Shown here piece by piece: positions 30,514-62,123 of a stretch of DNA of 64,000 bases. Numbering within the stretch: the stretch's first letter is position 1; the number at the start of each line of letters is the position of its first letter. Position numbers and translations under genes: made by a program. Below the pieces are notes generated by a model, which was given only the letters and a program-made list of their open reading frames with translations, searched no databases and was not told the origin of the DNA. The DNA is from Wenjunlia tyrosinilytica (GTDB lineage Bacteria; Actinomycetota; Actinomycetes; Streptomycetales; Streptomycetaceae), in assembly GCF_014646055.1 (NCBI RefSeq), contig NZ_BMMS01000027.1, positions 61,142 to 125,141 of the forward strand. The letters run 5' to 3'.

Positions 30514-30545
30514 GACCTGACACACAGCCAGGAATAGGTAACCCT

Positions 30546-32638: not shown

Positions 32639-32676
32639 CAGGCGCGACGCGGAGCGAAACCAGGAAAGGACCAACC

Positions 32677-34286: not shown

Positions 34287-34312
34287 CCGGGCGGGAAGAT
34301 GTGGGGCCTGAC

Positions 34313-38736: not shown

Positions 38737-38927
38737 GGCGAGACCCCTTTGCGGCGGCTGGCTTGTTGGTTATTCATCAAACTAGCCGAAATCGATGCCT
38801 TCAAGGTGCGCGGACGCGGGCTCGCAGTGGGGCTTCACTGTGCCGCAGCCGGAGTTCACGGGGGCTTCAGTCGGCGCTTGTAGCGTTACGGGACACGAAA
38901 GCTGATTGTGAGAAGGGTAGTCCAGGG

Positions 38928-43900: not shown

Positions 43901-45451
43901 ATGCTGCACACCTTCGTCCACCCGGACGAGGAACTCGTGCGCGAGGCCGTCACCGAACCCTTCAAGAACTACCTCCGGAGTTCCATCGACCTGATGCGCG
44001 GCCTAGCCAAGGGGCTCGGCCTCGACCCGGTCCAGCACCAGGACCTGATCGTCAACCATGCGTTCGACCGGTATTTCCGGACCAGCGCCCTGTTCGGCAC
44101 CCCCGAGTCCTGCGCCGACTTCGCCCGCGAGCTGGCGAACATCGGCGTCGACGAGATCGCCTGCCTCATCGACTTCGGAGTCGGCGACAAGCAGGCGCTC
44201 GACGCGCTGCGCAACATCGTGGCCGTGCAGCACGCAGTCAGCAGTGGCCCGGGTGGCCGCACGCCCACCGTGTCGGAGGCGATTGCGCGGCACGGCGTCA
44301 CCCACCTGCAGTGCACCCCGGCCTTCGCGGGGCTTCTGCTGCTTGAACGAAAGGGCGCGCCGACGGAAAAGGGCCCGCTGCGCCGGCTCCTGGTCGGAGG
44401 GGACGCCGCGCCCCCCGAGCTCGCGGGGCGCCTGCGAGACACGGGCGTGACGGAGGTCTTCAACATGTACGGACCGACTGAGACCTGCGTCTGGTCGGCG
44501 GTCCAGCAGCTCGAAACCGACCGGCTGGGCCGGGTGACCGTTGGCGGACCGATCGCCAACACGACCCTCCAGGTTCTCGACGCCCGCCTGCAGCCGGTCC
44601 CGGCCGGAGTGCCCGGCGAACTCCACATTGGCGGCGCGGGCGTCGCACGAGGGTACTGGAATAGGCCCGGGCTGACGGCGGACCGGTTCATACCCGATCC
44701 GTTCGCCACCCGGACCGGCGCGCGGATGTACCGGACCGGCGACATCGTCCGCTCGCTCGGCGACGGTCGTCTGGAGTTCCTCGGTCGCGCCGACCACCAG
44801 GTGAAGGTGCGGGGATACCGCATCGAGCCAGGCGAGATCGAGAATGTGCTCGGTACGCACCCCGGGATCGACAGCTGCGCCGTGGTCGCCCGGCGGGACC
44901 GCGGCGGCGACGCCGCCCTGGTCGCGTTCGTCGTCCCCCGTGCGGGCACGGAGTGGGCAGAGTGGAGCGTCCGGGCGCACGCGAGGCGGCTGCTGCCCGA
45001 GCACATGGTGCCGTCGCAGATCGTCGACGTGGAAGGGCTGCCGTTGACGCTCAACGGGAAGGTCGACCGGGCAGCCCTGGTGGCACAGGCTAACGAGGTG
45101 GACGGGTCGCGCCGCGCCGCCTATGTGGCGCCGCGCAACCGGATCGAGGACTCCCTCCAGCAGATCTGGCAGGAACTGCTCGAACGGCCCGGCGTCGGTG
45201 TGCACGAGAACTTCTTCGAGATCGGTGGCCACTCGCTTCTCGCGGCGAAGCTGCACGCGCGGATCGTCGCGGCGGAGCTGGGCGACATCGAACTCGTCGA
45301 TCTCTTCAGTCACCCGACCATCGCAGGCCTCGGGGCACGGCTCGGCGATGGCGGCGACGCCGCGAACGTGCGGGTCCGGAGTATTGACAGCAGGGTGAGC
45401 AGGCAGCAGGCCGCCGCGCGTCGGCAGCAGCGCAGGAGGCAGGGCTCATGA
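40964..45451 (+). CDS. NRPS module 1: docking-C-A[LLM]-PCP, glycine-like code
   Basis: This 1495-residue NRPS has ATG 40964 preceded by GGGGGAAGGGG. Domains: TubC-type docking domain (1-60), condensation (about 65-490; HHIAADL at 191-197, final Gly replaced by Leu), adenylation from about 520, and PCP (Ser1424 in IGGHSLLAAKL). The A domain is split after motif A4 (FDISVLELLW, 715-724) by a luciferase-like monooxygenase of about 340 residues (about 752-1090; VDFSLFYFAAEPG, GLSFASGWQPDDF, EPFKNYLRSS), then resumes as VTHLQCTPAF. Specificity residues D716, I717, L720, Q1116, L1143, G1145, M1168, V1176, W1177 give DILQLGMVW, close to the glycine code DILQLGLIW. The LLM probably oxidises the tethered residue. 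The PKS gene overlaps by 4 nt. Confidence 0.93.
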   Translation: MVPESIAELVGSLAAQGVGVFLEEGRLQCRGPRGVLSAELLETIRGHRDEIVRFLEREHDPSRPHPLTAGQQSLLLHQRLTPNSVAYNLAFAANADNALDAESLDAALREVVTRHSILRTTYAWQDGEPTQRTQPVPARILDTQTVAAELVESTVEAFMDRPFDLEREAPIRAAIICTGLEDQRPVIVLVVHHIAADLWSIDVIVEQWLGGYRNRVDNGGPRSAPIGSNFIDQVRSEAAWLASSAADVERSLAFWRDRLGDEPAVLNLPFDRPHPAVQSFGGGRISLELDAALSTRIDALARKADVTPNMLFLSAFQVLLQKYSGSDDVVVGTPVAGRRTPPVQNAVGFFADPVVVRADLRGDPPFAHVLDATRANLLNALDHPYPFPLLVEQLNPVRDPRRSPLFQVMYVWQQTRQRHDQVRLTPLSSSGQRGAAYDLVLSVGQSGGRFSCSWSYNLGLFNRSTVERMAHAFLEILGGIVARPSDPISLLPSMSADELGAVRRVSAGPVTELCEPPWPEQFDSQARRTPTATALVCGDETLTYQQLADRVGRCSAALRARGVAEEVRVGLCIERSAALVVAMLAIARAGGVYVPLDPDYPADRLAHMASDSGIALCVADERGRLALRSHRGEVLDLDVLIGEAAALEPSPAAAVSGDALAYLIYTSGSTGRPKGVMVTRRNVANLFAGLDGSVGEGPGTAQAQPVWLAVTSVCFDISVLELLWTLCRGHQVVIEPELWTARARPVPSRDRRKVDFSLFYFAAEPGPRRGSEVYRLLLDGARFADTHGLHAVWLPERHFHAFGGAYPNPSVLAAAVAAVTERVGIRAGSVVLPLQDQLRVAEEWAAVDNLADGRVGLSFASGWQPDDFVLAPTRYADRRETMWQDIETVRRLWRGESAPRTNGVGAEVQVTTLPRPVQLELPAWATAAGSDETFRQAGERGLNILTHLLGQNIHELARRIRVYRESRAAAGHDEGVVTLMLHTFVHPDEELVREAVTEPFKNYLRSSIDLMRGLAKGLGLDPVQHQDLIVNHAFDRYFRTSALFGTPESCADFARELANIGVDEIACLIDFGVGDKQALDALRNIVAVQHAVSSGPGGRTPTVSEAIARHGVTHLQCTPAFAGLLLLERKGAPTEKGPLRRLLVGGDAAPPELAGRLRDTGVTEVFNMYGPTETCVWSAVQQLETDRLGRVTVGGPIANTTLQVLDARLQPVPAGVPGELHIGGAGVARGYWNRPGLTADRFIPDPFATRTGARMYRTGDIVRSLGDGRLEFLGRADHQVKVRGYRIEPGEIENVLGTHPGIDSCAVVARRDRGGDAALVAFVVPRAGTEWAEWSVRAHARRLLPEHMVPSQIVDVEGLPLTLNGKVDRAALVAQANEVDGSRRAAYVAPRNRIEDSLQQIWQELLERPGVGVHENFFEIGGHSLLAAKLHARIVAAELGDIELVDLFSHPTIAGLGARLGDGGDAANVRVRSIDSRVSRQQAAARRQQRRRQGS

Positions 45452-48400
45452 ACAATCAGCCCGCGGGCGACGACGGCGTTCAGCCCATCGCGGTCATCGG
45501 CATGGCTGGCCGCTTCCCGGGGGCGGCCGACCCGGAGGCGTTCTGGCGGAACATCGCAGCCGGAGTCGAGTCACTCGTCCGCCTCTCGGAGGACGACCTG
45601 ATCGCGGCCCGCGTCCCGGAGGAGCGGTACCGCGACCCACACTACGTGCGGGCCGCCACTGTGCTAGACGGCATGGACCGGTTCGACGCTGGGTACTTCG
45701 GCTTCACCCCGATGGAGGCGTCGATCCTCGACCCGCAGCACCGGCTGCTCCTCGAGTGCACTCAGGAGTTGTTCGACACAGCCGGGTACGACTCGTGCCG
45801 CCTGGATAAGACCACCGGTGTCTACGTCGGTGTCGGGTTCCCCTCGTACCTTGTCAACAACCTGTTGGCCCGCCCCGAGATCATCGAACAGGTCGGGATG
45901 CAGCGGATCTTCTTCGCCACCGATAAAGGGTTTGCGCCCACCAGGATCTCGCACAAGTTCGATCTGACCGGTCCGAGCATCGGTGTCGACACGGCGTGTT
46001 CAACCTCGCTCGTCGCGGTCCACCAGGCTTGCAGGGCGCTGCTGGCCTACGACTGCGACCTCGCGATCGCCGGTGGCGCCAGCTCGGTCTTGCCCAACGG
46101 CGTCGGTTACCAGTACCACGAGGGCGGCATCAGTTCTCTAGACGGGCACTGCCGGGCGTTTGACGCCCGTGCCGGGGGCACCCGGTTCGGCAGTGGCGTG
46201 GGGCTCGTCCTGCTCAAGCGGCTGGAGGACGCACTGGCCGACGGCGATCAGGTGCTCGCCGTGATCCGGGGTTCTGCGGTCAACAACGACGGGGCGTCGA
46301 AGGCGGGATTCACCGCGCCGAGCGCGACCGGCCAGGCCCTCGTCGTGGCGGAGGCCCTGGCCTTCGCCGAGGTGTCGCCGGATTCGGTCGGCTACGTCGA
46401 GGCCCACGGAACGGGGACCGTCATCGGTGACCCGATCGAGATCTCCGGTCTGACCCGGGCCTTCCGCAAGGGGACAGACCGACGGCAGTACTGCGCCATC
46501 GGGTCGGTCAAGACGAACGTCGGCCACCTCGATGTCGCGGCCGGCGTGAGCGGACTGATCAAGACCGTCCAGGCTCTGCGGCACGCGGAGCTGCCGCCCA
46601 GCCTGCATTGCGAGCAGCCCAACCCGGCGATCGACTTCGCGAGCAGCCCGTTCTACGTGAACACCGAGCTGCGCCCCTGGACGTCCTCCAGCGGTCCCCG
46701 GCGGGCCGGAGTGAGTTCGTTCGGGATCGGCGGCACGAACGCCCACGTGGTGCTGGAGGAGGCTCCCCCCCGGGGGGCTTCGGGGCCATCGCGCGCGGAG
46801 CATCTGGTGGTGGTCTCCGCCCGCTCGGCCGAGGCACTCGACCGCGCCCGGGCCGACCTCGCCGCCGCGTTCCGGAACGCAGTCGATGAGGCTCTGCCCG
46901 ATCTGGCCTTCACGCTCAGCGTCGGGCGGCGGGCGCACGCCCACCGTCAGGCCTTCGTCTGCCGCACCCGCGCGGAGGCGGTCGACCTGCTCGAAGGGGC
47001 CAGACCCTCAGCCGTCCGGTCGGGGATGCACACGGGGGATGCGCCGCGGATCGCGTTCCTCTTCCCCGGGCAGGGCGCCCAGCAAGTGCGGATGCTGGCC
47101 GACCTCCAACGCGGGGAGGAGGTCTTCCGGCGGGAGGTCGAGCGGTGCGCCATGCACGTCGAGAAACGTCTCGGCCTCGACATGTGCGAGGTGATCTACC
47201 CCGTTGGTCAGGGCGGCGACGCCCGTCTCGATGAGACATGGCTCACCCAACCCGCCCTGTTCGCGGTCTCATTGGCGACGGCCCGGCTCTGGCAGTCCTG
47301 GGGCGTCCAGCCGGACGTGCTGCTCGGACACAGTCTCGGTGAGTATGTCGCTGCGACGGTCGCTGAGGTCTTCGGCCCGGAGGACGCCCTGGACCTGGTG
47401 ATCGACCGGGCGCGCTTGATGAACGGTCTGCCCGCCGGGGCGATGACCGCGGTGTCGCTCGACGCGGCAGCGCTCGAACCGCTCCTCGGGCAGTGCTCTC
47501 TGGCGGCCGTCAATGCCCCTGGGCAGTGCGTCGCCTCGGGGCCGCTCGCGGCCGTCGAGGAGCTCGAGGCCCGGATGGCGGCCGCCGGCGTCGTGCACCG
47601 CAGGCTCCGCACCTCCCACGCGTTCCACTCGGCCATGCTGGACGAGGTCGCCGGAGCGTACCGGGAACGTGTGGCGCAGGCCCGGCCGGGTGTGCCGCGC
47701 ACACCGATCGTGTCGTGTCTGACGGGCCGCGTCCTGGAGCCCGGCGAGAGCTCCGATCCCGCGTACTGGGCCCGGCAGATGCGGGGCACGGTCAGGTTCG
47801 CCGAAGCGGTGCGGACCATCGCCGAGGACCCGCACCGCCTTTTCCTGGAAGTGGGGCCCGGCCGAACCCTGACCTCGATGGTGCGGAGGTCCGGCATCGC
47901 ACCCGAGCGCGCCCTCGCCTCGGCCCGGGGCGACGGCGACTCCCGGACAGACGGTGAGGCCCTGTTGGACGCGCTCGGCGCCCTCCACTGCGCCGGGGCT
48001 CCGGTTGCCTGGGAGCGGTTCTGGGCGGGCGAGCGGCGGCACCGCCTGCCGCTGCCGAGCTACCCCTTCGAGCGGCAGCGTCACTGGATCGACCCGAACC
48101 CGGCGGAGCGGCCCGCCCTCGAAATCCCGGCGGCGAGTCGGGACGGCGAGACTCTGTCCGCCCGTACCTGGCGCCCGGCCCCGCTCGATCCGGGTCCGTC
48201 CAAGCGGCCGGCCGGGGGCGACTGGCTGCTGCTGGTGGCGGACGACGCGCTCGGATGTGCGCTGGAGGCCCGCCTCGCCCAGCGCGGGGCGTCGGTGGTG
48301 CGGATCCGGCCGGGTGTCGAACTCGCCGAGACCGCTGAAGAGTTCGTCGTAGACCCGGCACGCCCGGACCTCGTCGAGCGCCTGCTCGAGGCACTTGAGG

Positions 48401-51400
48401 AGCGCGGTCGGACGCCGAGCGACGTCGTGCTGGCCTGCGACCGCGGGGCGGCCGAGAACGTCGATGCCGCCCAGCGCGCAGGGCTGGAGACCGCGGCGGT
48501 CTGGATCCGGGCCCTGGCCTCGCGGGCGACAGGTGAGCCCGTCCGGCTCGCTGTGGTGGCCGACCGGCTGGCCCGAGTCCTGCCGAGTGACGAACCGGCG
48601 ACCGCCATGGGGTCGCTGGTCGGCTTCTGCCGCGCGGCCGCCGAACACCCCGAGCTGGCGGTCGCCTGCATCGACATCGACGAGCCCAGCGCCGCGGAAG
48701 CCGCCGACGCCGTCCTCGCGGAGCTGACGGCTGGCCCGGCCGACGCCCTTGTCGCGTATCGGTCGGGCCGGCGCCACATCGAGTCGTACGAGCCGGTCGC
48801 TCGGGCCGAGGGCGGTGCGCGCGCGAGTGGGAGCTATCTCGTCACCGGCGGGTACGACGGCCTGTCCGCGATCCTCGCCCGCCGCCTCGCCGAACGGCAC
48901 GGCGCACGGCTCACCCTGGCCGGGCCGGAGCCGGTGCCGCCCAGGACCGAGTGGCCGGGCTGGTTCGGCGAAGACACCGGAGTGGAGTTGGCGCGCGGCG
49001 CGGCCGAGGCCGAGGCCGGCGTCGTCACGGGCGCCCTGCGCCACGATGTCGAGGCACTGTCGGACGTTGAGCGGGAGCTCGCCGCCGAGGCGGGCCCGGG
49101 GTTGCCGCTCGAGCTGGTCGGGGCGACCCTGAACCGGCTGTGCGGCAGCTACGTGCACGGCACGCTTCTCCGGGCAGGCGTCGACCTGACCGAGGGGCAG
49201 GTGTACAAGCGATCCGAGATCGCCCGGCGGATGCGAATCCTGCCGATCTTCGAGAAATTCCTCGACTTCTTCCTTGAGGTGCTCCACGAGGATGGGGTCA
49301 TCCGTCGGGAGGGCGACCGGATCGAGGTCCTGATCGGTCCGGAGGCCGTGCCCCCCGCTGACTCCGTCGCCGCCAGGGCGCTACTGCCGGGATTCGAAGC
49401 GACTATCGACTTCCTGGAACACTGCGTCGCCCACTACCCGGCGGCCCTCAGCGGCGACATCGACGCGATCGGGGTGCTCTTCCCAGAGGGAGACCCCAAG
49501 CCGCTGGAGGCAGCGTTCCGCCGGCTGTTGGACGGGAGCAACTTCGACGTCTACGCGGGGCTGCTGGGCCGCCTGCTCGCCCGGCTGCCCGAGGGCCGAC
49601 CGGGGCGGCCCCTCCGAATCCTCGAAGTCGGCGGTGGAAATGGACAGTTGACCCGGCTCATCGCCCCGATGCTGAGCGAGCGGGAGGTGGAGTACCGGTT
49701 CACCGATCTCGGCGGCTCGTTTGTCCGCCGGGCGCGGGAGGAACTGGCCGACCTGGGCTTCGGCGACCTGCGCTGCCAAATTTTGGACATCACGAAGGAC
49801 CCGGTCGCCCAAGGCTTCGAACCGTACTCGTTCGACGCAGTGATCGGCTTTGACGTCGTCCACGCCACCCGGCGGATCGACCGGACGTCGGAGAACCTGC
49901 GCGGGCTGCTCGCGCCCGGCGGACTGCTCTGCCTCGTCGAGGCGGTGGCCTCGCTGCGCTGGGTCGAGATGCTGTGGGGTCTGGCCGAGGGATGGTGGCT
50001 GTTCGAGGACCATGAGGTCAGGACAGGGTCGCCGCTGGTACCGCTGGACACCTGGGACCGAGTCCTCGGCGAACTGCCGTTCGCGGACACCGTGTCGTTC
50101 CCACGTGATCGGGCGGCCCGGGAAAGCACGTACTACGGACTGGTCCTCGCCCAGCAGCCCGAGGTATTCGACACCCCTGACCGTTCCGCAAAGCTGGCAC
50201 GCCGGGCCGAGGAGATCCTCCAGATCAACCGCACGCGTATCCAGGCCGTCCGCGATCTCGAGGCGGCCGGAGCGGAAGTCCTGCTGGTCCGGGTGGACCT
50301 GACCTCCCCCGTACAGGTGGCCGAGGCCGTCGCGACCGCCCGGACGCGCTTCGGCGCGCTGGACGGAGTCGTCCACGCTCCGGAGACGGTGGGCGGGGAG
50401 CCGGGCCAGGACTGGACCCCGGCGAGCCTGCGGGCCCTGGCTGCTGCCCACGGCCGGATGGCGCGGGCGGTCGAGGCGGCTGCCGCTGACACGGGCGTGG
50501 AGAGCGTCACGTATGTCTCGCTAGACGCCGCTCCCGGCGGCGGGGATGCTCTACGGGCCGCGACCGTGGCCGGACTGCTTGACGCGTTCGCCGCTTCCGG
50601 CGGTGCCGGCAGCCGGTCGGGGTCGATCCACTGGAACGGCGACGAGGAGCTCAACCAGCTGGACGACGCCATCGGCAGCTCGGGTGTGATCCACGTGTCG
50701 GCACAGAGCCCTGCGGCGGCACGAGCGGCGGGCACCGACCGGCAGCGAGCCTGGCTCGAGGCCCGTGGCACCCGCGGCGACCCGGCGGAGGACGTCGAGC
50801 GGGAGCTCCTGGTGATCTTCCAGCAGCTCTTCGGAATGGACGCGATCGGCCTCGATGACGACTTCTACCAACTCGGCGGCGACTCGCTGCTGGCCGTTCA
50901 GGTGGTGGCACGGGTGCGGCGGCGCTTCGGCGTGGACATCGCGGTCAAGGCGGTCCTCCAGGCTCCCACGGTCGCGAGGCTCGCTCAGCGGGTGCGCGCG
51001 ACGGGTCAGGGCGGCCAGCACACGGACACGCCCCTGCTGCGCGTTCCGCGGCACGATCTGATGCCGCTGTCGTTCGGTCAGGAGTCGCTGTGGCTCGCCG
51101 AGGAGCTCCACGGGCCGAGCGCGACGTACAACATCCCCGGCGCGGTGCGTCTGATCGGGAGGTTGGAGACCGGGGCGCTGCGGCGGTCCCTGCGCCAGGT
51201 CATCCAGCGGCACGAGGTGCTGCGCACCACCATCCACGCCGTGGACGGACTGCCGGGGCAGCGGGTGCACGACGAGCTGAACGTCGAGTTGCCCGTGCGA
51301 GACGTGCGCGAGGAGCAGATCAGCGACCTGGCCCAGGAGCACGCGCGGACGGTGTTCGATCTCACGTCCGGGCCGCTGATCCGGGTGACCCTGCTCCGGG

Positions 51401-53418
51401 TCGGCCCCGAGGACCACGTGCTTCTGGTGAACATCCACCACATCGTGTCCGACGGCTGGTCACTCGGCGTGCTGGTGGAGGAACTCGTCACCTTGTACTC
51501 GGCATTCGTCCGCGGCGGACCGTCGCCGCTCGAACGACTGGATCACCAGTACGTGGACTTCGCGCAGTGGCAGCGCCGCTGGCTGGAGGGCGAGGTCTTC
51601 GACCGGCAACTCGCCTTCTGGCGGCGCAAGCTCGCCGGAGCGCCGTCGCTACTGGAGCTGCCGACCGATCGGCCGCGCCCCGAGATCCAACGGATCCACA
51701 ACGCGGTCCGGAAGTTCGTGGTCCCTCCTGAGGTCTCGGCGGACCTCGTGGCGCTCGGCAGGGCCGAGGGGGCGACCCTCTTCATGGTGCTGCTCGCCGC
51801 GTTCAAGGTCTTGCTCGCCCGCTACTCCGAGCGGACCGACATCATCGTCGGAACGACGAGCGCCAACAGGACCCGCGCCGTCTTCGAGCAGATGATCGGC
51901 ATGTTCGTGAACAACCTGGCACTGCGGACCGACCTGTCCGGGAACCCGACGTTCCGTGAACTCCTGGCCCGGGTCCGTGACACGGCAGTGGACGCCTACG
52001 CACACCAGGACCTGCCGTTCCGGACTCTCGTGGACGAGCTGCGTCAGGATCGGAGTACGGCCGTCACACCGGTGTTTCAGGTTCTCTTCCTGCTGCAGAA
52101 GCTGAACATCACCCTGGAACTGCCGGGGATCACCGCGCACACGCTCGAAGTTGACGCGCTCCACACCAAGTTCGACCTGACCCTGTTCATGGAGGAGCAA
52201 GAGAACGGGATCGAAGGCACCTTCATCTACAACGCGGAGCTCTTCGACGAGCCGACCGTCGAGCGCATGGCGGCACACCTCCGGCGGCTCCTGGTGAGCG
52301 CGGTGGCCGCGCCGGACATCCGAATCGAATCACTGCGGATGGCGACCGATGACGAGGAGAGAGTGCGTCACATGGCCGAGGCGAGCGCGAAGACGTCGAT
52401 GCTCCAGTCGCTGCATAGCGCGAAGCGGCGCTCGGTGGAGATCGCCGGGATCAACCCAGTCACCACCGGATTCCTGCCGGGACTGCCCGATACGCCGCTC
52501 GTCGTGGAGCCGGCCGTCGTGCGCGCCGACCTGCCAGGCTGGCTGCGGTCACACCGCGGGGTCGTCGATTCCCAATTGCACCGGCACGGTGCGCTGCTGT
52601 TTCGCGGCTTCCACGGCGGCTCGGTCGAGAAGTTCGAGGAAGTGGCGCACGCGATCTGCGCGACACTCTACCGGGAGTACGGGGACCTGCCGAGGGAGGG
52701 CGACTCGGTACAGGTCTACAAGTCGACTCCGTACCCCAGCGACCGATCGATTCTCTTCCACAACGAGAGTTCCCACCTCAGCAGCTGGCCGATGCGGCAG
52801 CTGTTCTCCTGCATCGTCGCACCGCAGGACGGCGGGGAGACCCCGGTCGTCGACTGCCGGAAGGTCTACGCTGGCCTCCGGCCCGAGCTGATCGAGATGT
52901 TCCGGCGTAGGAGGCTGCGTTACGTCCGCAACTTCATCGAGTCGGTCGATGTGAGCTGGTCCCAGTTCTACGGGACGGATGATCGCGCGTTCGTGGAGCG
53001 TAAGTGCCGCGAGGAGGGCACCGGTTTCGAGTGGGCCCTGGACGGGACGCTGAGGACCTGGCGGGTCGCCGACGCGGTCGTCCGGCACCCGCGAACCGGG
53101 GAGATGGTGTTCTTCAACCAACTGGCTCTCCATCACGCCTCGTGTCTCGACCCCGACACCCGTCGGTCCCTGGGCGCCCTCTACGGCGAGCAGGGCATGC
53201 CGCGCAACGTCTACTGGGGTGACGGCTCCCTCATCGAGGACGAGGTGGTCGCCGAGGTCCGGGAGTTGATGGATCGTGAGGCGATCACCTTCCGCTGGCA
53301 GGAGGGCGACGTGCTGGTCATCGACAACATGCTCGTCGCGCATTCGCGGCTGCCCTTCGTCGGTCCGCGGAAGATCGTCGTGGCCCTCGGCGACATGATG
53401 GAAGCGGAGACCCACTGA
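45448..53418 (+). CDS. Hybrid PKS-NRPS: KS-AT-KR(MT)-ACP-C-TauD
   Basis: 2656 residues. KS (about 10-440) has Cys184 in DTACSTSL and both catalytic His motifs (EAHGTGT, KTNVGHLD). AT (about 530-820) has Ser629 in GHSLGEY and HAFHS near 724, which favours malonyl-CoA. A ketoreductase follows (structural half about 920-1120, SYLVTGGYDG near 1129), with a methyltransferase inserted (about 1190-1560; ILEVGGGNGQ at 1391). The KR catalytic YAAAN motif is missing, so the keto group should stay. ACP Ser1813 (LGGDSLLAV) leads to a C domain with HHIVSDG at 1997-2003. The last 340 residues are a TauD-type Fe(II)/2-oxoglutarate hydroxylase with H2438-x-E2440, H2632 and R2641. The partner A domain is in the next protein. 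Confidence 0.93.
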   Translation: MNNQPAGDDGVQPIAVIGMAGRFPGAADPEAFWRNIAAGVESLVRLSEDDLIAARVPEERYRDPHYVRAATVLDGMDRFDAGYFGFTPMEASILDPQHRLLLECTQELFDTAGYDSCRLDKTTGVYVGVGFPSYLVNNLLARPEIIEQVGMQRIFFATDKGFAPTRISHKFDLTGPSIGVDTACSTSLVAVHQACRALLAYDCDLAIAGGASSVLPNGVGYQYHEGGISSLDGHCRAFDARAGGTRFGSGVGLVLLKRLEDALADGDQVLAVIRGSAVNNDGASKAGFTAPSATGQALVVAEALAFAEVSPDSVGYVEAHGTGTVIGDPIEISGLTRAFRKGTDRRQYCAIGSVKTNVGHLDVAAGVSGLIKTVQALRHAELPPSLHCEQPNPAIDFASSPFYVNTELRPWTSSSGPRRAGVSSFGIGGTNAHVVLEEAPPRGASGPSRAEHLVVVSARSAEALDRARADLAAAFRNAVDEALPDLAFTLSVGRRAHAHRQAFVCRTRAEAVDLLEGARPSAVRSGMHTGDAPRIAFLFPGQGAQQVRMLADLQRGEEVFRREVERCAMHVEKRLGLDMCEVIYPVGQGGDARLDETWLTQPALFAVSLATARLWQSWGVQPDVLLGHSLGEYVAATVAEVFGPEDALDLVIDRARLMNGLPAGAMTAVSLDAAALEPLLGQCSLAAVNAPGQCVASGPLAAVEELEARMAAAGVVHRRLRTSHAFHSAMLDEVAGAYRERVAQARPGVPRTPIVSCLTGRVLEPGESSDPAYWARQMRGTVRFAEAVRTIAEDPHRLFLEVGPGRTLTSMVRRSGIAPERALASARGDGDSRTDGEALLDALGALHCAGAPVAWERFWAGERRHRLPLPSYPFERQRHWIDPNPAERPALEIPAASRDGETLSARTWRPAPLDPGPSKRPAGGDWLLLVADDALGCALEARLAQRGASVVRIRPGVELAETAEEFVVDPARPDLVERLLEALEERGRTPSDVVLACDRGAAENVDAAQRAGLETAAVWIRALASRATGEPVRLAVVADRLARVLPSDEPATAMGSLVGFCRAAAEHPELAVACIDIDEPSAAEAADAVLAELTAGPADALVAYRSGRRHIESYEPVARAEGGARASGSYLVTGGYDGLSAILARRLAERHGARLTLAGPEPVPPRTEWPGWFGEDTGVELARGAAEAEAGVVTGALRHDVEALSDVERELAAEAGPGLPLELVGATLNRLCGSYVHGTLLRAGVDLTEGQVYKRSEIARRMRILPIFEKFLDFFLEVLHEDGVIRREGDRIEVLIGPEAVPPADSVAARALLPGFEATIDFLEHCVAHYPAALSGDIDAIGVLFPEGDPKPLEAAFRRLLDGSNFDVYAGLLGRLLARLPEGRPGRPLRILEVGGGNGQLTRLIAPMLSEREVEYRFTDLGGSFVRRAREELADLGFGDLRCQILDITKDPVAQGFEPYSFDAVIGFDVVHATRRIDRTSENLRGLLAPGGLLCLVEAVASLRWVEMLWGLAEGWWLFEDHEVRTGSPLVPLDTWDRVLGELPFADTVSFPRDRAARESTYYGLVLAQQPEVFDTPDRSAKLARRAEEILQINRTRIQAVRDLEAAGAEVLLVRVDLTSPVQVAEAVATARTRFGALDGVVHAPETVGGEPGQDWTPASLRALAAAHGRMARAVEAAAADTGVESVTYVSLDAAPGGGDALRAATVAGLLDAFAASGGAGSRSGSIHWNGDEELNQLDDAIGSSGVIHVSAQSPAAARAAGTDRQRAWLEARGTRGDPAEDVERELLVIFQQLFGMDAIGLDDDFYQLGGDSLLAVQVVARVRRRFGVDIAVKAVLQAPTVARLAQRVRATGQGGQHTDTPLLRVPRHDLMPLSFGQESLWLAEELHGPSATYNIPGAVRLIGRLETGALRRSLRQVIQRHEVLRTTIHAVDGLPGQRVHDELNVELPVRDVREEQISDLAQEHARTVFDLTSGPLIRVTLLRVGPEDHVLLVNIHHIVSDGWSLGVLVEELVTLYSAFVRGGPSPLERLDHQYVDFAQWQRRWLEGEVFDRQLAFWRRKLAGAPSLLELPTDRPRPEIQRIHNAVRKFVVPPEVSADLVALGRAEGATLFMVLLAAFKVLLARYSERTDIIVGTTSANRTRAVFEQMIGMFVNNLALRTDLSGNPTFRELLARVRDTAVDAYAHQDLPFRTLVDELRQDRSTAVTPVFQVLFLLQKLNITLELPGITAHTLEVDALHTKFDLTLFMEEQENGIEGTFIYNAELFDEPTVERMAAHLRRLLVSAVAAPDIRIESLRMATDDEERVRHMAEASAKTSMLQSLHSAKRRSVEIAGINPVTTGFLPGLPDTPLVVEPAVVRADLPGWLRSHRGVVDSQLHRHGALLFRGFHGGSVEKFEEVAHAICATLYREYGDLPREGDSVQVYKSTPYPSDRSILFHNESSHLSSWPMRQLFSCIVAPQDGGETPVVDCRKVYAGLRPELIEMFRRRRLRYVRNFIESVDVSWSQFYGTDDRAFVERKCREEGTGFEWALDGTLRTWRVADAVVRHPRTGEMVFFNQLALHHASCLDPDTRRSLGALYGEQGMPRNVYWGDGSLIEDEVVAEVRELMDREAITFRWQEGDVLVIDNMLVAHSRLPFVGPRKIVVALGDMMEAETH

Positions 53419-53420
53419 CG

Positions 53421-56400
53421 ATGAACGACGCCGGTTTCCGTCTTTCCCCGCAGCAGGCCCACACCTGGCAGCACGTCCCCAAGGGGTGGGCGCAGTGCCG
53501 AATCTCCTTGGAAGGGCCGTCGGCCGCCGACGATGTCGCCCGCGCCGTGCGGGACGTCGTGCGCCGCCACGAGTCGCTGCGTGCCCGCCTCGCTACGGTC
53601 CCCGGTATCGCCGTCCCGCTCCAGACGGTAGACGAGGAAACAGAGTTGGCGTGGGTCGAGGACGTCCTCCCAGGGGACGCCGCGGCAGCTGCGGCCGCGG
53701 TCGAACAAGCGGCCGCCGAGGACCGTACCCGCCCGCTCGGTGGTGCCATGCGGGCGCGGCTGCTGTCGGGCACGGACCACGCCGAGCTCGTGCTGACTGC
53801 GCCCGGCGTCTTCCTCGACCGCAGGTCGTTCGTGTCGGTCTTCGAGGAGCTCGCGGCTCGACTCGGCGGGTCGGCGGAGGACGACGAGCCGCTCCAGTAC
53901 CTCGACGCGGCGGAGTGGCTCCACGAGCAGGCCGCGACCGCCGACGCGAGGAACCGGATGGCGGCCTGGAACCGGCACGAGCTCGCCGCCGCGCGGGTGC
54001 TCCCAACGCCGTTCGAGGGCGGTACGGCCGACGGCGTGGGCGTGGTCCAAGTGCCGTCAGACCCGCCGTGGGCCCAGGCCACCGAGCGGGTGGCAGCGGA
54101 ACTCGGCTGCTCGCTAGGAGCGCTAGTCCTGGGCGCCTGGCAGCTGCTGCTGTGGCGGCTCACCGCGGCGGAGCGCCTGGTGACCGGGTTCGTCCCCACC
54201 ACCCGAGGTCTGGACGAACTCGACGCGGTGGTCGGCAACTTCGCAAGCCCGGTCCCGGTGCTCAGTGCGATGGAACCGGGGATGTCCTTCGAAGCCCTGG
54301 TGGCCCGGCTGGACCGGGCGATGGGCGAGGCGTCGACCGCGCAGTTCTCCTTCGACGGCACGGCGGCGGAGGGAACGGCCCCGTTCGGTTACTCCTTCTG
54401 CGAACTGCCGGCAGAAGCAAGCGCGGGGCGGCTCCGGCTGGCCCTGCGGTCGGTGGCCACGGCGCCCGTGGGCGCAACACTCCACCTCGACGCCGCTTGC
54501 ACGCCCGACGGTTGGCTCGACCTGCGAATCCTGCACGACACCCGGCTCGTCTCGGAACGTCACGCGGCAAGACTCGCTGGACAGTTCGGCTCCGTCCTCC
54601 GTTCCGTCACGGAGACCCCCCGGGCATTGATCGGTGACCTCGCCCTGGCTGACCAGGACGAGACCGCCCGTGTCCTCGGCGCGGGCACCGGGCCCCTCGT
54701 GGAACGGTCCCTCCTGCGACTCGCCCACGCCCGCTTCGAGCGGTGCGCCGACGAGCGGCCCGAGCGCCTCGCGGTGGTCTGCGGTGGGCAGCGGCTGACC
54801 TACGGCGAGGTCGAGGCACGGGCGAACCGGCTCGCGCACGCCCTCCGCTCGGCCCGGGTCGGCCCGGATGTCCCGGTGGCCCTGATGGTGGAGCGCTCGG
54901 TTGACTACGTCGTCGGACTGCTCGCCGTGCTCAAGGCCGGCGGCGCGTTCGTCCCGATCGATCCTGGACTTCCGGCCGAGCGAATAGCGCAGACGCTCGC
55001 CGAAGTCCGCCCGGCGGTGGCCATCACACACCGCGGTCTCACCGGGTTCGTGGCGGCGGCGGGAGTTCGGGTGCTCGACCTGGACGACGCCGCCGCGCTC
55101 GCCGCCTGGCCCGCCACCCGTGCGGCCGCGACTGTGCACCCAGAGAACCTCGCGTACGTCATCTTCACCTCCGGCTCGACCGACCGCCCGAAGGGCGTGG
55201 CCATGCCGCACCGCGCGATCTGCGGCTATGTCGAAGGCGTGCTACCGGAGTTCTGCCTCGGAGAGGACGCAGTGCTGGCCAGCCTGGCGACGCCAGCGGC
55301 CGACCTCGGCCACACCGCGGTGTTCGGCGCACTCTGCACCGGCCGCTCGCTGCTGCTCGCCGCACCCGAGGAGGTACTGGCCAGCGACCTGCTCGCGCGT
55401 CGGTTCCGAGAGCAGCCGGTCGACCTGCTGAAGATCGTCCCCTCGCACCTGGCAGCGCTGCTCGGGGCCCAGGACGCGGCCGACCTGCTGCCCCGGTCCT
55501 GCCTGGTGCTGGGCGGCGAGGAGCTGACCGCGCCGCTGGTCGAGCAAGTCCGCAGGCTGCGGCCGGGCCTGCGGGTGATCGACCACTATGGCCCGACGGA
55601 GACGGCGGTCGGAGCGCTGGTCTCGACAGTCGCCGACCGGCTCTCGGGCCCCATCCCGATCGGCACCCCGCTGCCGAACTACCGCGCGTGGATCCTCGAC
55701 GCGCGGCTGCGGCCGGTTCTGCAAGGCGCTCCGGGTGAGCTGTACATCGCCGGTGATGGCGTCGCCCGGGGCTACTGGGAGCAGCCGGGCCGGACGGCGG
55801 AACGCTTCCTGCCCGATCCGTTCGCCGTCGAGCCCGGGTCGGTCATGTACCGCACCGGCGACCTAGCGCGCCAGCGGCCCGACGGCGCCGTGGTGTTCCT
55901 CGGGCGCGCCGACGACCAGGTGAAGATCCGCGGCAACCGGGTGGAGCTCGGCGACATCGAGACGGTGCTCCGCCGTGACAAACGGCTCGCCGATGCCGCC
56001 GTGGTCGCCCGGGACGACGGCGCGGGCATGCACCTCGTGGCATATGTGGCGCCCCGCCGCGGCACGTTCGTGCAGGGCCCCGAACTGGCGGAGGAACTCC
56101 GGTGCCAGCTGCCGGAGTACATGGTCCCCGGCGCGATCGTCGCACTCCAGGCACTGCCGCTGACACCGAACGGCAAGCTGGACCGGTCGGCGCTTCCGGC
56201 CCCGGATCCGTCCGCCTCGCGCACGGCCCCGTACGTCGCGCCGCGGACCGGGACGGAGACCCTGCTCGCGGAGGTGTGGGAGGACATCCTCGGCTGCGGA
56301 AAGGTCGGTTCTCGTGACGACTTCTTCCGTGAGCTCGGCGGGAACTCCCTGGACGCCACTCGGGCGGTCGCCCGGGTGAGGGCGGCGACCGGTGTCGCGC

Positions 56401-59400
56401 TCCAGGTGAGCGCGCTATTCGAGGCACCCACTGTGGCCGCACTGGCCGAGCAGGTGGAGGCAGGGCGCGCGGCCGCGAGCGTGGGCGGCGCCAGCGACGC
56501 GATCACGCCGGTCGACCGGACCGGCCCTCTACCGCTGTCGTACGCGCAGCGCCGGATCTGGATGCTTTCCCAGGTCGATGGTGCGAACACCGCCTACAAT
56601 ATCCCGGCCGCCATCCGCATCGGCGGGCCTCTGGACATCGACGTGCTGGTGCGAGCGCTAGGCGAGGTGGTGGCCCGGCACGAGGCGCTGCGCACCAACT
56701 TCGTCCAGGTGGACGGTGTCCCGGCGCAGGTGGTGAGGGAGGCGGCGCCGATCGAGGTGCCGATGGTGGATATCCGCGCGACGGACGTGGCGGCACGGGC
56801 GCAGGCGCACGCATCCCGGCCGTTCGACCTGGAGCGGGACGAGCTGTTCCGGGCCGCGGTCCTGCGGGTCTCGGCGGAGGAGCACGTCTTGCTGCTCTGC
56901 CTCCACCACATCGTGTCCGACGGCTGGTCGACCACAGTGCTCTGGCAGGAGATCGCGAGCCTCTACACGAACTTCCGCGCCGGCCAAGAGTCACCGCTCA
57001 AGCCGCTGCCGAGCCAGTACGCCGACTTCGCGGCGTGGCAGAACCGCTGGCTGGACAGCCCGGAGATCGCCCCTCAGCTCACCTACTGGACGCGGCAACT
57101 CGACGGCCTGCCAGCACTGTTGGAGCTGCCAACAGACCGGCCCCGGCCTTCGCTGCAGGGCGGCGAAGGGGCGACGCTGGCGATCACCGTCCCCTCGGAG
57201 ACCGTCCTCGCGCTGCGCGGACTGTCCGTCGAGCAGCGGGCGACGATGTTCATGGTGATGCTCACAGCGTTCAACGTGCTGCTCGCCCGGTACACCGGGC
57301 AGCACGACATCGCGGTCGGTACGCCCGTCGCCAACCGGACGCGTGCGGAGGCCGAGGGGCTCATCGGGTGCTTCTTCAACACCCTCGTGATCAGGACTGA
57401 CCTGTCCGACGACCCCACCTTCTCCGACTTGCTCGGCCGGGTCCGGGACGTGGTGATCGCCGCGCTGGCGCACCAGGACTTGCCGTTCGAGCGCCTCGTC
57501 GAGGTTCTCAACCCCGCCCGCAGCCCCGCGCACACGCCACTTTTCCAGACCCTTTTCGTCTACCAGCCCGCGCCGGCCGGCGGGGCCGCCATGGACGGAT
57601 TGAGGGTCGAGCGGCTGGCCCTGCCTGGCACCGTCGCCAAGTACGACCTGACCCTCGACCTCGTCGAGGACGAGGACGGCGTCCGCGGGCGCATCGAGTA
57701 CCGCACTGATCTCTTCGACTGCGGCACGATCGAGCGGATGGCCGGGCACTTCACCAGGCTGCTCGACGCGATCGTCCGCGACCCGATGAGCCGCGTCGCC
57801 GAGCTTGACCTGCTGACCGGGGCCGAGCGGGAGCTGGTGCTTGCGGAGTGGAACAGCGAGCACCGGGCGCAGGCCGACGGGCTGCCGGTGGCGGACGCGT
57901 TCGAGGAACGGGTCCGGTCGTGCCCCGACGCCACGGCTCTGGTCTTCGGTGACCGCTCGCTCACCTACCGCGAGCTGGACCGGGCGGCGAACCGGCTGGC
58001 TTGCCGGCTTCGCGCGAAGGGGGTCTCCGAGAACGTGCTGGTCGGCCTCTGGACGGAGCGCTCGATCGAGCTGGTCGTCGCCATGCTCGCCGTGCTCAAG
58101 GCCGGCGGCGCCTATGTCCCGCTCGACCCGGCCGCGCCGACCGCGCGGGTCGCCGTCTTGGTTGAGGACGCCCGGATCGGACTGGTGATCGCCCCGACGG
58201 CCCGGGCGGCGGAGCTGCCGCCGGGGGTCGACGTGGTCGCCCCGGAGGTGGGTCCGTCGGAGGAGGTGGAGCCGGCGATGAGGACGACCGGTCCGGAGAG
58301 CCTCGCGTACGTCATCTACACCTCGGGATCAACCGGCCGGCCCAAGGGTGTCATGGTCGCCCAGCGGAACCTGGTCTCCTTCTTCGCCGCGATAGACAGC
58401 CGACTGGACAACCCGACGCCGGGCACCTGGCTCGCCCTGACCCACCACACCTTCGACATCTCGGTCCTTGAGCTGCTGTGGACGCTCACCCGGGGCTTCA
58501 AGGTGGTGCTGGTCGGCGACGAACTGGTGCTCAGCGCGCCGCCGCGGCCAGCGGGCACCCGGCCCGTCGACTTCAGCCTGTTCTACTTCGCGAGCGATGC
58601 TGGCGAGCGCGGAACGGACAAGTACCGACTGCTGCTGGAGGGCGCTCAATGGGCCGACGAGCACGGTTTCGCCGCCGTGTGGACACCGGAGCGGCACTTC
58701 GGCGCCTTCGGGGGGCTCTACCCGAACCCGGGCATCACCGCCGCGGCACTTGCGGCCTCGACCACCCGAATCGGCATCCGCACTGGCAGTCTCGTCCTCC
58801 CGCTCCACAACCCGATCCGGGTCGCCGAGGACTGGGCGGTGATCGACAACCTGTCCAACGGACGGGTTGGTCTTTCGATCGCCTCGGGCTGGCAGCCGCA
58901 CGACTTCGCGCTTGCGCCGCACAACTTCGCCGATCGCAAGGAGGTCATGTTCCGTGACCTCGAGGTGGTGCGGAGCCTTTGGCGAGGAGAGGCGGTCCGG
59001 GCGATCTCCGGCACCGGTGAGGAGATCGAGGTCCGGACGCTGCCGCGGCCGGTGCAGCCCGAGCTGTCGGTATGGGTCACCGCGGCCGGCAACCCGGAGA
59101 CCTTCCGCCGTGCCGGAACGGTCGGCGCGAATGTGCTCACCCATCTGCTGGGCCAGTCGGTCGAGGAGATGGCCGGTGCGCTCGAGGTCTACCGGGCCGC
59201 CTGGAGCGCCTCAGGGCGCCCCGGACGCGGGCATGTCACCTTGATGCTGCACACCTTCGTCTCGGACGACGAGGAATACGTGCGGCGGACCGTGCGTGAG
59301 CCGTTCAAGAACTACCTCCGTCAGTCGGCGGACCTCGTGCGGCCCGTCGCCCGTGATCGCGGGCTTGATGTCGAAGGACTTGACCAGAGCGATCTCGACG

Positions 59401-62123
59401 CGCTGCTCGACCACGCGTATGACCGCTACTTCGGCAGCAGCGGCCTCTTCGGCACGCCGCGAGGGTGCGCCGCGACGGTCGACCGGGTGCAGGCCGCTGG
59501 CGTGGACGAGATCGCCTGTCTCGTGGACTTCGGGGTGGCCGAGGACGAGGTGCTGGCGAGCCTCGAGCACCTGGACGAGCTCCGCCGGATCACCTCCGCG
59601 GGCACGACCGCGGAACCTCGGGTAGACATCGCTGGACTGATCGAGCAGCACTCCGTCTCGCACCTCCAGTGCACCCCGTCGCTGGCGGCGCTGCTCGCCG
59701 CCGACGTGGACGCGCGGGCGGCCCTGCGGCGGCTCGACTGGCTGCTCGTCGGTGGTGAGGCGCTCCCGCATCTGCTGGCAGAGAAGCTCTCCGCCGCGGT
59801 CGATGGCCGGGTGCTCAACGTCTACGGCCCGACCGAGGCCACGATCTGGTCCACCAGCCACCTGGTATCCGGTGCGGACAACTCGATCGGACGTCCCCTT
59901 AGCAACACCCGGACGTACGTCCTCGACGAGCGGTGCCGACCGGTGCCGGTCGGCGTGCCTGGCGAACTGTGCATCGGCGGGGACGGTGTGGCAGTCGGCT
60001 ACCTGCACCGGCCTGAGCTCACCGCCGAGCGCTTCGTCACCGACCCCTACGCATCGGACCCAGCGGCCAGGATGTACCGCACCGGCGATATTGTCCGCCA
60101 CCGCCCGGGCGGTGAACTCGAGTTCATCGGCCGGCGGGACCACCAAGTGAAGATCCACGGGTTCCGGGTAGAACTCGGCGAGATCGAGGCGGCGCTCGGC
60201 AGCGCCCCGGGCGTGCAGGCCGGGGCCGTTGTTGCGGACGACGACGGGCGAGGTGGCAAGCGGCTCGTCGCCCACGTCGTCATGTTCGGGCCGTTCCAGG
60301 CCGCGGACCTACGCCGCCACTTGGAGGAGCAGCTTCCTCGGCACATGGTGCCCGCTCGTATCGTCGAGTTGGAATCGATGCCGCTGCTGCCGAGCGGCAA
60401 GGTGGACCGTAGCGCGCTCCCGGGGGTCGCCGCTGACCAGCCGACGAACGGTGAGGCGATCGCCCCGAGCACCCCGACCGAGCGCGAACTCGCGAGGATC
60501 TGGGCCGAACTTCTCAAGCAGCCGACGATCGGCGCGCACGACAACTTCTTCGAGCTCGGCGGCGACTCCATCATCGCGATCCAGCTGGTCGCGCGGGCCA
60601 GGCACGTCGGGCTGACGATCTCGGCGCGCGACCTGTTCCGGCACCAGACGCTCACCGAACTCGCGGCGGTGGCCCGGGAGGGCACCACGACCCACGCCGA
60701 GCAGGACCTGGTCCTCGGCGAGGGCGGTCTGGCACCCATCCAGCACTGGTTCTTCGAGCAGGAGCTCGCTGACCCTCACCACTACAACCAGGCCATCCTG
60801 GTGGACGTCACCAGCGGGCGGCTGGACCTCGGGTCGCTCGCCTGCGCTCGCGACGCCCTACTGCGGCACCACGACAGCTTGCGCAATCGGTTCGTCCATG
60901 GCGCCGACGGTTGGCGGCAGTGGACCGGCGCCCCCGAGCCCGTCCCCGACCCCGTCGACTGCCTCGACCTGACGGACCTGCCGCCCGCGGCCTGGCCCGA
61001 GGCCGTCGCCACGATGCAGCGGGACGCCCACGGCGCCCTGGATCTCGTGGACGGCCCAATGTTGCGCATGGTCTACCTCGACTTCGGCGCGCAGCGCGCG
61101 GACCAGCTGTTCGTGGTGGCCCACCACACGGTCGTCGACGGTATCTCCTGGCGCATTCTCATGGAGGACCTCCAGACCGCCTACGAGGCAGAGCGTCAGG
61201 GCCGCGGTGCCCGGCTGCCGCTCAAGACGACCTCGTACCAGGAGTGGGTCTGCCGGCTCACCGCCGACGCCGACTCGGCGCGGACCCGTGCGGAACTCGA
61301 CTACTGGGCCGATCAGATCGAGCCGCCGACAGCCGCGCTGCCACGCGACCGCGCCGGGGAAAACACCGAGGGAACCGTTCGGAGGGTCCGCGCGGAGTTC
61401 ACCGCCGATGAGACCATCGCGCTCGTCCGGGACCTTCCGGCAGGACACCGGATCGGAGTACCCGAGCTGCTGCTCACCGCGCTGGCCGACGCGTGCGCGC
61501 CATGGACCGGCTCGCGCTCGCTGCTCGTCGACGTGGAGGGTCACGGCCGGGAAGAACTCTTCGACGACATCGATGTGTCCCGCACCGTCGGGTGGTTCAG
61601 CGCGATCTATCCGCTCCGGATCACTCTGGCCGTACCGGGGGAGGACAGCCTGCGGGCCGTCCGGGAACAGATCCGCGCCGTCCCGCGCAGCGGGGTGGGC
61701 TTCGGCTTGCTGCGCCACCTCTCGCCAGACGAGTCGGTACGGGCGCGCCTGAGGGACGGACGCCGTGCGGAGCTCGTCTTCAACTACCTGGGCCAAGCCG
61801 ACGCCTCGCTGCTGCCTGACTCGATATTCCAGCTGTCCGGTGATCCGGTCGGTGCGCCGCACGGCCCCGCGCAGCGGCGTCGGCATCTCGTCAACGTCAA
61901 TGGGATCGTGGTGGACGGCCGACTCCGCGTCGACTTCGCGTACAGCCAGGCGGTGCACGATCCGACGACCGTCGAGGCGCTCGTGGCCCGATTTACCGCC
62001 GCGACGCGCGAGCTGCTTGGCGAGTGCCTCACCGGGGGCGTCCGGTTCGTGCCGTCCGACTTCCCGGACATCGATCTCACGCAGGGGGAGCTCGAAGAGC
62101 TCCTCACGGAACTTGAGAGCTAG
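53421..62123 (+). CDS. NRPS: condensation-like-A(Asp)-PCP-C-A[LLM](Gly-like)-PCP-E
   Basis: 2900 residues. The N-terminal 430 are condensation-like, but the HHxxxDG site reads APGVFLD (about 127-133), so it cannot catalyse normally and may be an interface domain for the TauD hydroxylase. A1 code D628 L629 T632 K671 V696 G698 H722 V730 G731 (DLTKVGHVG) is an aspartate code. PCP1 Ser976. C domain HHIVSDG from 1162. A2 is split after FDISVLELLW (1678-1687) by a second LLM (about 1715-2055). Its code D1679 I1680 L1683 Q2083 L2109 G2111 V2134 I2142 W2143 (DILQLGVIW) is glycine-like. PCP2 Ser2383 sits in LGGDSIIAIQ, the form common before E domains. A C-terminal epimerisation domain (about 2430-2890) has HHTVVDGISW at 2568. 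Confidence 0.93.
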   Translation: MNDAGFRLSPQQAHTWQHVPKGWAQCRISLEGPSAADDVARAVRDVVRRHESLRARLATVPGIAVPLQTVDEETELAWVEDVLPGDAAAAAAAVEQAAAEDRTRPLGGAMRARLLSGTDHAELVLTAPGVFLDRRSFVSVFEELAARLGGSAEDDEPLQYLDAAEWLHEQAATADARNRMAAWNRHELAAARVLPTPFEGGTADGVGVVQVPSDPPWAQATERVAAELGCSLGALVLGAWQLLLWRLTAAERLVTGFVPTTRGLDELDAVVGNFASPVPVLSAMEPGMSFEALVARLDRAMGEASTAQFSFDGTAAEGTAPFGYSFCELPAEASAGRLRLALRSVATAPVGATLHLDAACTPDGWLDLRILHDTRLVSERHAARLAGQFGSVLRSVTETPRALIGDLALADQDETARVLGAGTGPLVERSLLRLAHARFERCADERPERLAVVCGGQRLTYGEVEARANRLAHALRSARVGPDVPVALMVERSVDYVVGLLAVLKAGGAFVPIDPGLPAERIAQTLAEVRPAVAITHRGLTGFVAAAGVRVLDLDDAAALAAWPATRAAATVHPENLAYVIFTSGSTDRPKGVAMPHRAICGYVEGVLPEFCLGEDAVLASLATPAADLGHTAVFGALCTGRSLLLAAPEEVLASDLLARRFREQPVDLLKIVPSHLAALLGAQDAADLLPRSCLVLGGEELTAPLVEQVRRLRPGLRVIDHYGPTETAVGALVSTVADRLSGPIPIGTPLPNYRAWILDARLRPVLQGAPGELYIAGDGVARGYWEQPGRTAERFLPDPFAVEPGSVMYRTGDLARQRPDGAVVFLGRADDQVKIRGNRVELGDIETVLRRDKRLADAAVVARDDGAGMHLVAYVAPRRGTFVQGPELAEELRCQLPEYMVPGAIVALQALPLTPNGKLDRSALPAPDPSASRTAPYVAPRTGTETLLAEVWEDILGCGKVGSRDDFFRELGGNSLDATRAVARVRAATGVALQVSALFEAPTVAALAEQVEAGRAAASVGGASDAITPVDRTGPLPLSYAQRRIWMLSQVDGANTAYNIPAAIRIGGPLDIDVLVRALGEVVARHEALRTNFVQVDGVPAQVVREAAPIEVPMVDIRATDVAARAQAHASRPFDLERDELFRAAVLRVSAEEHVLLLCLHHIVSDGWSTTVLWQEIASLYTNFRAGQESPLKPLPSQYADFAAWQNRWLDSPEIAPQLTYWTRQLDGLPALLELPTDRPRPSLQGGEGATLAITVPSETVLALRGLSVEQRATMFMVMLTAFNVLLARYTGQHDIAVGTPVANRTRAEAEGLIGCFFNTLVIRTDLSDDPTFSDLLGRVRDVVIAALAHQDLPFERLVEVLNPARSPAHTPLFQTLFVYQPAPAGGAAMDGLRVERLALPGTVAKYDLTLDLVEDEDGVRGRIEYRTDLFDCGTIERMAGHFTRLLDAIVRDPMSRVAELDLLTGAERELVLAEWNSEHRAQADGLPVADAFEERVRSCPDATALVFGDRSLTYRELDRAANRLACRLRAKGVSENVLVGLWTERSIELVVAMLAVLKAGGAYVPLDPAAPTARVAVLVEDARIGLVIAPTARAAELPPGVDVVAPEVGPSEEVEPAMRTTGPESLAYVIYTSGSTGRPKGVMVAQRNLVSFFAAIDSRLDNPTPGTWLALTHHTFDISVLELLWTLTRGFKVVLVGDELVLSAPPRPAGTRPVDFSLFYFASDAGERGTDKYRLLLEGAQWADEHGFAAVWTPERHFGAFGGLYPNPGITAAALAASTTRIGIRTGSLVLPLHNPIRVAEDWAVIDNLSNGRVGLSIASGWQPHDFALAPHNFADRKEVMFRDLEVVRSLWRGEAVRAISGTGEEIEVRTLPRPVQPELSVWVTAAGNPETFRRAGTVGANVLTHLLGQSVEEMAGALEVYRAAWSASGRPGRGHVTLMLHTFVSDDEEYVRRTVREPFKNYLRQSADLVRPVARDRGLDVEGLDQSDLDALLDHAYDRYFGSSGLFGTPRGCAATVDRVQAAGVDEIACLVDFGVAEDEVLASLEHLDELRRITSAGTTAEPRVDIAGLIEQHSVSHLQCTPSLAALLAADVDARAALRRLDWLLVGGEALPHLLAEKLSAAVDGRVLNVYGPTEATIWSTSHLVSGADNSIGRPLSNTRTYVLDERCRPVPVGVPGELCIGGDGVAVGYLHRPELTAERFVTDPYASDPAARMYRTGDIVRHRPGGELEFIGRRDHQVKIHGFRVELGEIEAALGSAPGVQAGAVVADDDGRGGKRLVAHVVMFGPFQAADLRRHLEEQLPRHMVPARIVELESMPLLPSGKVDRSALPGVAADQPTNGEAIAPSTPTERELARIWAELLKQPTIGAHDNFFELGGDSIIAIQLVARARHVGLTISARDLFRHQTLTELAAVAREGTTTHAEQDLVLGEGGLAPIQHWFFEQELADPHHYNQAILVDVTSGRLDLGSLACARDALLRHHDSLRNRFVHGADGWRQWTGAPEPVPDPVDCLDLTDLPPAAWPEAVATMQRDAHGALDLVDGPMLRMVYLDFGAQRADQLFVVAHHTVVDGISWRILMEDLQTAYEAERQGRGARLPLKTTSYQEWVCRLTADADSARTRAELDYWADQIEPPTAALPRDRAGENTEGTVRRVRAEFTADETIALVRDLPAGHRIGVPELLLTALADACAPWTGSRSLLVDVEGHGREELFDDIDVSRTVGWFSAIYPLRITLAVPGEDSLRAVREQIRAVPRSGVGFGLLRHLSPDESVRARLRDGRRAELVFNYLGQADASLLPDSIFQLSGDPVGAPHGPAQRRRHLVNVNGIVVDGRLRVDFAYSQAVHDPTTVEALVARFTAATRELLGECLTGGVRFVPSDFPDIDLTQGELEELLTELES

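Follow-up and report, generated by a model that had tools for sequence, protein, structure and literature searches.

The locus studied here, from the actinomycete Wenjunlia tyrosinilytica, raises the question of what a hydroxylase domain at the end of one synthetase protein and a condensation-like domain without catalytic histidines at the start of the next do together, and why a protein boundary lies between them. The whole stretch analysed, 64,000 nucleotides, is called the window throughout, and the His-less domain is called C*. Our answer, to which we give a probability of about 0.85, is that both belong to an interface-type Asp β-hydroxylation station of a hybrid PKS-NRPS line, with β-hydroxyaspartate (β-OH-Asp) as the product. 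This reading is drawn from the domain order, the intact TauD site, the His-less clade, the motif contrast between the domains flanking TauD, the pairing with Asp codes and the known β-OH-Asp clusters. The features concerned are as follows.

45448..53418 (+), protein 1, hybrid PKS-NRPS, KS-AT-MT-KR-ACP-C-TauD (Pfam, ORF)
51043..52377 (+), live condensation domain, HHIVSDG (Pfam, motif alignment)
52438..53415 (+), TauD-family Fe(II)/2-oxoglutarate hydroxylase domain, H108-x-E110...H302...R311 of the piece; stop codon at 53416-53418 (Pfam, alignment)
53416..53423 (+), protein boundary, TGA-CG-ATG
53421..62123 (+), protein 2, C*-A(Asp)-T-C-A(with luciferase-like monooxygenase)-T-E (Pfam, ORF, domain reading)
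53421..54680 (+), C*, interface-type His-less condensation-superfamily domain (alignment, trees, AlphaFold model)
53802..53822 (+), PGVFLDR at the HHxxxDG place (family consensus PALCAD), D133 being invariant (alignment)
54711..56210 (+), A domain, code DLTKVGHVG, Asp type (alignment-read code)
56226..56465 (+), T (PCP) domain, expected carrier of the Asp for hydroxylation (Pfam)

Protein 1 consists of 2656 residues, in which Pfam finds KS, AT, methyltransferase, KR, ACP, Condensation (1870-2305) and TauD (2359-2645) in this order. Protein 2 (2900 residues) has three Condensation-type stretches, two A and two T domains, and its second A domain is interrupted by a luciferase-like monooxygenase. 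Protein 1 is preceded by an acyl-AMP-ligase-like protein that carries a T domain (38763-40940) and by a TubC_N-C-A-T protein whose A domain carries a luciferase-like insert (40964-45451); protein 2 is followed by a C-A-T protein (from 62139) and then a KS, up to the contig end, which lies about 4.3 kb beyond the window. The TauD site is complete, with the H-x-E...H triad and the 2-oxoglutarate arginine at residues 108, 110, 302 and 311 of the piece starting at 52438. Thus, the C-TauD end with an intact iron site, which the first-pass annotation had read from the letters, is borne out by both Pfam and alignment.

In the alignment, the window C* reads PGVFLDR where HHxxxDG is expected. The same annotation had placed APGVFLD there, a one-residue offset of the identical stretch, and its His-less condensation-like domain at the start of protein 2 is real. 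In a tree of 92 rows, those of the His-less C* type fall into one group with an SH-aLRT of 100, apart from C and E domains and with the window inside it; in a tree of 346 rows built without the motif columns, the 91 His-less rows need only two label changes. Sporadic loss of the histidines is rejected on these two results, and the proposed phylogenetic check places the dead domain in a clade of its own, not among ordinary C domains with lost function. The copies nearest to the window are from Streptomyces and Saccharothrix, and the clade is linked to the founding interface class through its cyanochelin B and Variovorax members rather than through the reference sequences of the founding paper.

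An AlphaFold model of the C*-A portion (930 residues, pLDDT 88.6, pTM 0.84) resembles solved C-A didomains, among them Txo2 (6p1j, E 2e-81) and Txo1 (6ozv, TM 0.73/0.80). Since the model matches these didomains and the motif is lost, C* is predicted to be a domain that retains the fold and the seat of a C domain without its catalytic His pair. With the C* profile, chain 4tx2_B, which we take to be an X domain, obtains 142.5 bits, versus up to 215.8 bits for canonical C domains, the trees being without X domains. The X domain of glycopeptide synthetases is described as a remnant C domain turned oxygenase recruitment platform; it recruits a P450, unlike C*, whose proposed partner is TauD.

C* is intact in all five actinomycete copies compared. 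Its pairwise dN/dS values of 0.22-0.59 exceed those of the neighbouring C and TauD domains (0.10-0.25), and, as judged from these ratios, C* is under purifying selection that is looser than that of its neighbours; the faster evolution also fits relaxed constraint. It could be imagined from a rate about twice that of the neighbours that C* is an ordinary C domain whose histidines were recently lost in this lineage, and which stays in place as a passive leftover. Such an origin is highly improbable given the shared replacement motif, the single clade, the intact frames in the actinomycete relatives and dN/dS values below 1, and the trees appear to have largely refuted it already.

The hydroxylation station predicts that the A domain next to C* activates aspartate. 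An Asp-type code was found in 97 of 100 A domains that follow C* and in 20 of 140 others (Fisher p 2e-42, which is overstated as the rows are related and not independent). The 140 comparison domains are those with a known preceding domain, and 12 without a preceding domain in the locus, three of them of Asp type, were set aside. The remaining 3 of the 100 carry non-Asp codes, two of which share DSALIAEVW (L011 at 10348 and L115 at 1374). This code resembles, we presume, that for histidine, and the two exceptions would fit a histidine subtype of the family. The code of the window A domain, DLTKVGHVG, was confirmed by alignment as the aspartate code named before, so the domain is probably Asp-selective, and a preference for another amino acid is not what the code indicates.

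The relatives were picked with a TauD alignment of ten C-TauD members, C* playing no part in the choice, and the best 80 of at least 554 confirmed stretches were taken; L009-L015 and L026-L040 are plasmid loci that were added by manual selection among the matches listed. Among the best 80, the order C, TauD, C* recurs in 61, and one more has TauD followed by C* with no upstream C domain found. In 7 loci C* stands elsewhere, and in 11 there is no C* in the fetched stretch. The 80 loci come from Actinomycetota, Cyanobacteriota, Nitrospirota, Acidobacteriota, Myxococcota, Pseudomonadota, Chloroflexota and Verrucomicrobiota. Because relatives chosen by TauD alone repeat it, the order is far from chance; the 11 loci suggest that close TauD relatives may manage without C*. 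Of 200 genomes of the family, 3 have an orthologous C*, counting that of the window itself, and the actinomycete cluster family is present also in Streptomyces and Saccharothrix.

The two condensation-type domains that flank TauD differ consistently. Over the scan and hand-picked plasmid loci together, HHxxxD is kept in 79/79 readable C domains before TauD, while both histidines are gone and the Asp is kept in 78/78 readable C* rows. Wherever both motifs of a TauD-C* pair could be read, the intact one stands before TauD and the His-less one after it (73/73). The motif was unreadable in 5 of 83 C* rows and in 3 of 82 rows of upstream C domains, and L060 and L101 each contribute their C* twice to the count. 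Ten rows have a C domain after TauD that keeps at least the first His, and in none of these rows was a C domain seen immediately upstream of TauD. Together with the Asp-code pairing and the layout of the cyanochelin B cluster, this contrast supports the earlier proposal that a TauD hydroxylase and a dead interface domain act on aspartate, as far as sequences can speak for an activity. In four Streptomyces loci (L046-L049) the parts are rearranged, with C*-A(Asp code)-T coming first and TauD after it, and with no TauD directly before. The TauD match of L060 (2596-3926, a Nitrospiria MAG) is in two pieces, probably due to a frameshift. Membership of the window TauD in a stand-alone subtype was also considered: its 8-row clade holds five rows with C* directly after TauD and three without, so TauD phylogeny alone cannot separate the two contexts.

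TauD might instead act after condensation, with the polyketide-Asp intermediate as its substrate, or on the ACP-bound polyketide chain, as its fusion to the C domain and its position next to the ACP module would allow. Two points argue against this: the pairing with Asp-type A domains holds strictly across phyla and across different upstream contexts, and β-OH-Asp is present in products of the same layout, although these products leave the timing unsettled. We therefore regard a different timing or substrate as quite unlikely.

The same anatomy is already known from siderophore clusters, and the window is a new actinomycete example of it. Reitz et al. reportedly described in 2019 a non-canonical condensation-superfamily interface domain paired with a C-terminally fused Asp hydroxylase (IBH_Asp). 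The window TauD is likewise fused at the C-terminus of an assembly-line protein, and the adjoining condensation-superfamily domain likewise lacks the catalytic His and falls in its own clade; the window differs in being from an actinomycete, and a metallophore context was not found. Interface domains are now a named C subtype, and profiles for them and for IBH_Asp exist in antiSMASH 8.

The layout recurs in the cyanochelin B cluster of Leptolyngbya sp. NIES-3755, on plasmid 2 (AP017310.1), where BAU16013 ends in C-TauD and BAU16012 opens with a His-less C*-A(Asp code)-T. The two TauD domains are 50.5% identical. The cyanochelin B paper assigns this C*-A-T module to β-OH-Asp4, which was seen by MS and NMR. 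Different from the window, the cluster is cyanobacterial, has an NRPS and not a PKS module upstream of C-TauD, and adjoins a gene annotated as ferric aerobactin receptor. In variochelin biosynthesis, the hydroxylase domain of VarG lies within a PKS protein and the variochelins bear β-OH-Asp, as stated in the paper, whose VarG legend names no methyltransferase domain, unlike protein 1 of the window. Locus L027 of Variovorax sp. PDNC026 has the layout given there for VarG, a KS...C-TauD protein followed by a His-less C, an Asp-code A and a T domain; it is betaproteobacterial, its TauD is 44.8% identical to that of the window, and its variochelin identity is by layout only. For potashchelin, the order given is FAAL-ACP-C-TauD-C-A(Asp)-PCP, and PtcB ends in the TauD domain. 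It is a gammaproteobacterial lipid siderophore, and its likeness to the window is by the published description only.

We infer the following order of steps. The A domain of protein 2 would load L-Asp onto its T domain. The His-less C*, seated on the A domain as a C domain would be, would form no peptide bond and would present the Asp-S-T to TauD at the end of protein 1, where the C-β would be hydroxylated with Fe(II), 2-oxoglutarate and O2; the surfaces of TauD and C* may also hold the two proteins together. Condensation would follow, the live C domain of protein 1 linking the ACP-bound polyketide chain to the β-OH-Asp amino group. Since the module is without an epimerase, L-threo-β-OH-Asp would be the likeliest product. 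The cyanochelin B and potashchelin papers give threo for fused hydroxylase domains, and that on variochelin gives erythro, not threo, for the fused type.

As β-OH-Asp is a metal ligand in the first-pass annotation, the product may bind metal. No siderophore-binding-protein gene (PF01497, the only uptake family searched) was found on the window contig (C27), while C17 and C26 hold the matches in the genome; the S. globisporus relative has its nearest PF01497 gene on that contig more than 100 kb away. An eLife survey (PMC12971057) mentions that such hydroxylases turn up in non-metallophore peptides too.

The second question is why TauD and C* are on different proteins. At the boundary, the stop TGA is followed by two bases and ATG, so that the two genes are in different frames; a TauD tail of 9 residues precedes the boundary, and on the other side 7 residues lie between the start codon and the C* core. 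A sequencing or frameshift error does not account for the split, because the frames differ and the relatives L041-L044 are split as well. It had been described as a feature of this locus; the split itself is real, but it is the normal arrangement and not peculiar, with TauD and C* in one polypeptide in 0 of 83 pairs from many phyla (L060 counted twice). Among these pairs, C-TauD is fused in 73, split in 6 and without a C domain found in 4, and 79 have C* and A in one protein. The tail that follows the last TauD motif has a median length of 12.5 residues (measured in 70 of 83), and where the start of C* could be read, it is usually about 10 residues ahead of the core.

No dedicated docking domain was seen at the TauD/C* boundary, and a TubC_N match by Pfam, present at the start of the protein at 40964, is absent from that of protein 2; the TauD-C* contact may thus itself dock the two proteins. 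A COM-type contact, in which the acceptor belongs to the C domain itself, could still operate here. It is not hard to imagine from the constant separation, the little space left for a docking domain on either side and the 11 of 80 TauD relatives without C* in the fetched stretch that C* is only a docking platform, a COM-acceptor-like tether of protein 2 to the TauD end, with hydroxylation needing TauD and T alone. This is unlikely, since pure docking would require nothing near the observed constancy of the His-less motif and of the Asp pairing, and the pairing is kept in L046-L049 where the order is changed.

For the hydroxylation station, a further reading is tentatively offered, and we doubt it more than we trust it: the TauD/C* break would be obligatory across the sampled phyla, with the catalytic contact serving as both subunit dock and active-site assembly, given that the two are never one polypeptide and have no room for a docking domain, and the actinomycete branch would be a lipopeptide line with two monooxygenase-interrupted, presumably Gly-type A domains and a product class lacking known siderophore genes. 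Should the TauD-C* contact indeed be the dock, it would be a portable way for two synthetase proteins to communicate and hydroxylate at once. The results add a family of actinomycete clusters to the range of a device that is well described from siderophores. They also provide loci for comparison, in which an intact C domain precedes TauD, a His-less C* and an Asp A domain follow it and a boundary always lies between, for the role of dead condensation domains. No paper on this actinomycete cluster stood out among the open-licence literature, from which it does not follow that the cluster is unpublished.

Several other observations were made in the window and its genome. A MupA/Atu3671-type luciferase-like monooxygenase (TIGR04020) interrupts two A domains, at 42524-45085 and 57900-60422, with the codes DIL...MVW (middle not read) and DILQLGVIW, respectively, which we take to be of Gly type. 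The module of the latter closes with an E domain, which is odd for plain glycine; hence, the oxygenase there may yield a chiral or N-hydroxylated residue. Before the cluster, 29314-37773 holds possible tailoring or control genes, namely a weak galactosyltransferase match, a GatZ/KbaZ-like gene, a transglutaminase-core gene, a DegT aminotransferase, a GNAT and a BTAD regulator. An IS110-family transposase (8824-10152) and a Cas3-like helicase (11633-13861) are both on the minus strand. Contigs C26 and C30 of the source genome (G000) carry two further TauD matches, with condensation domains on the same contigs.
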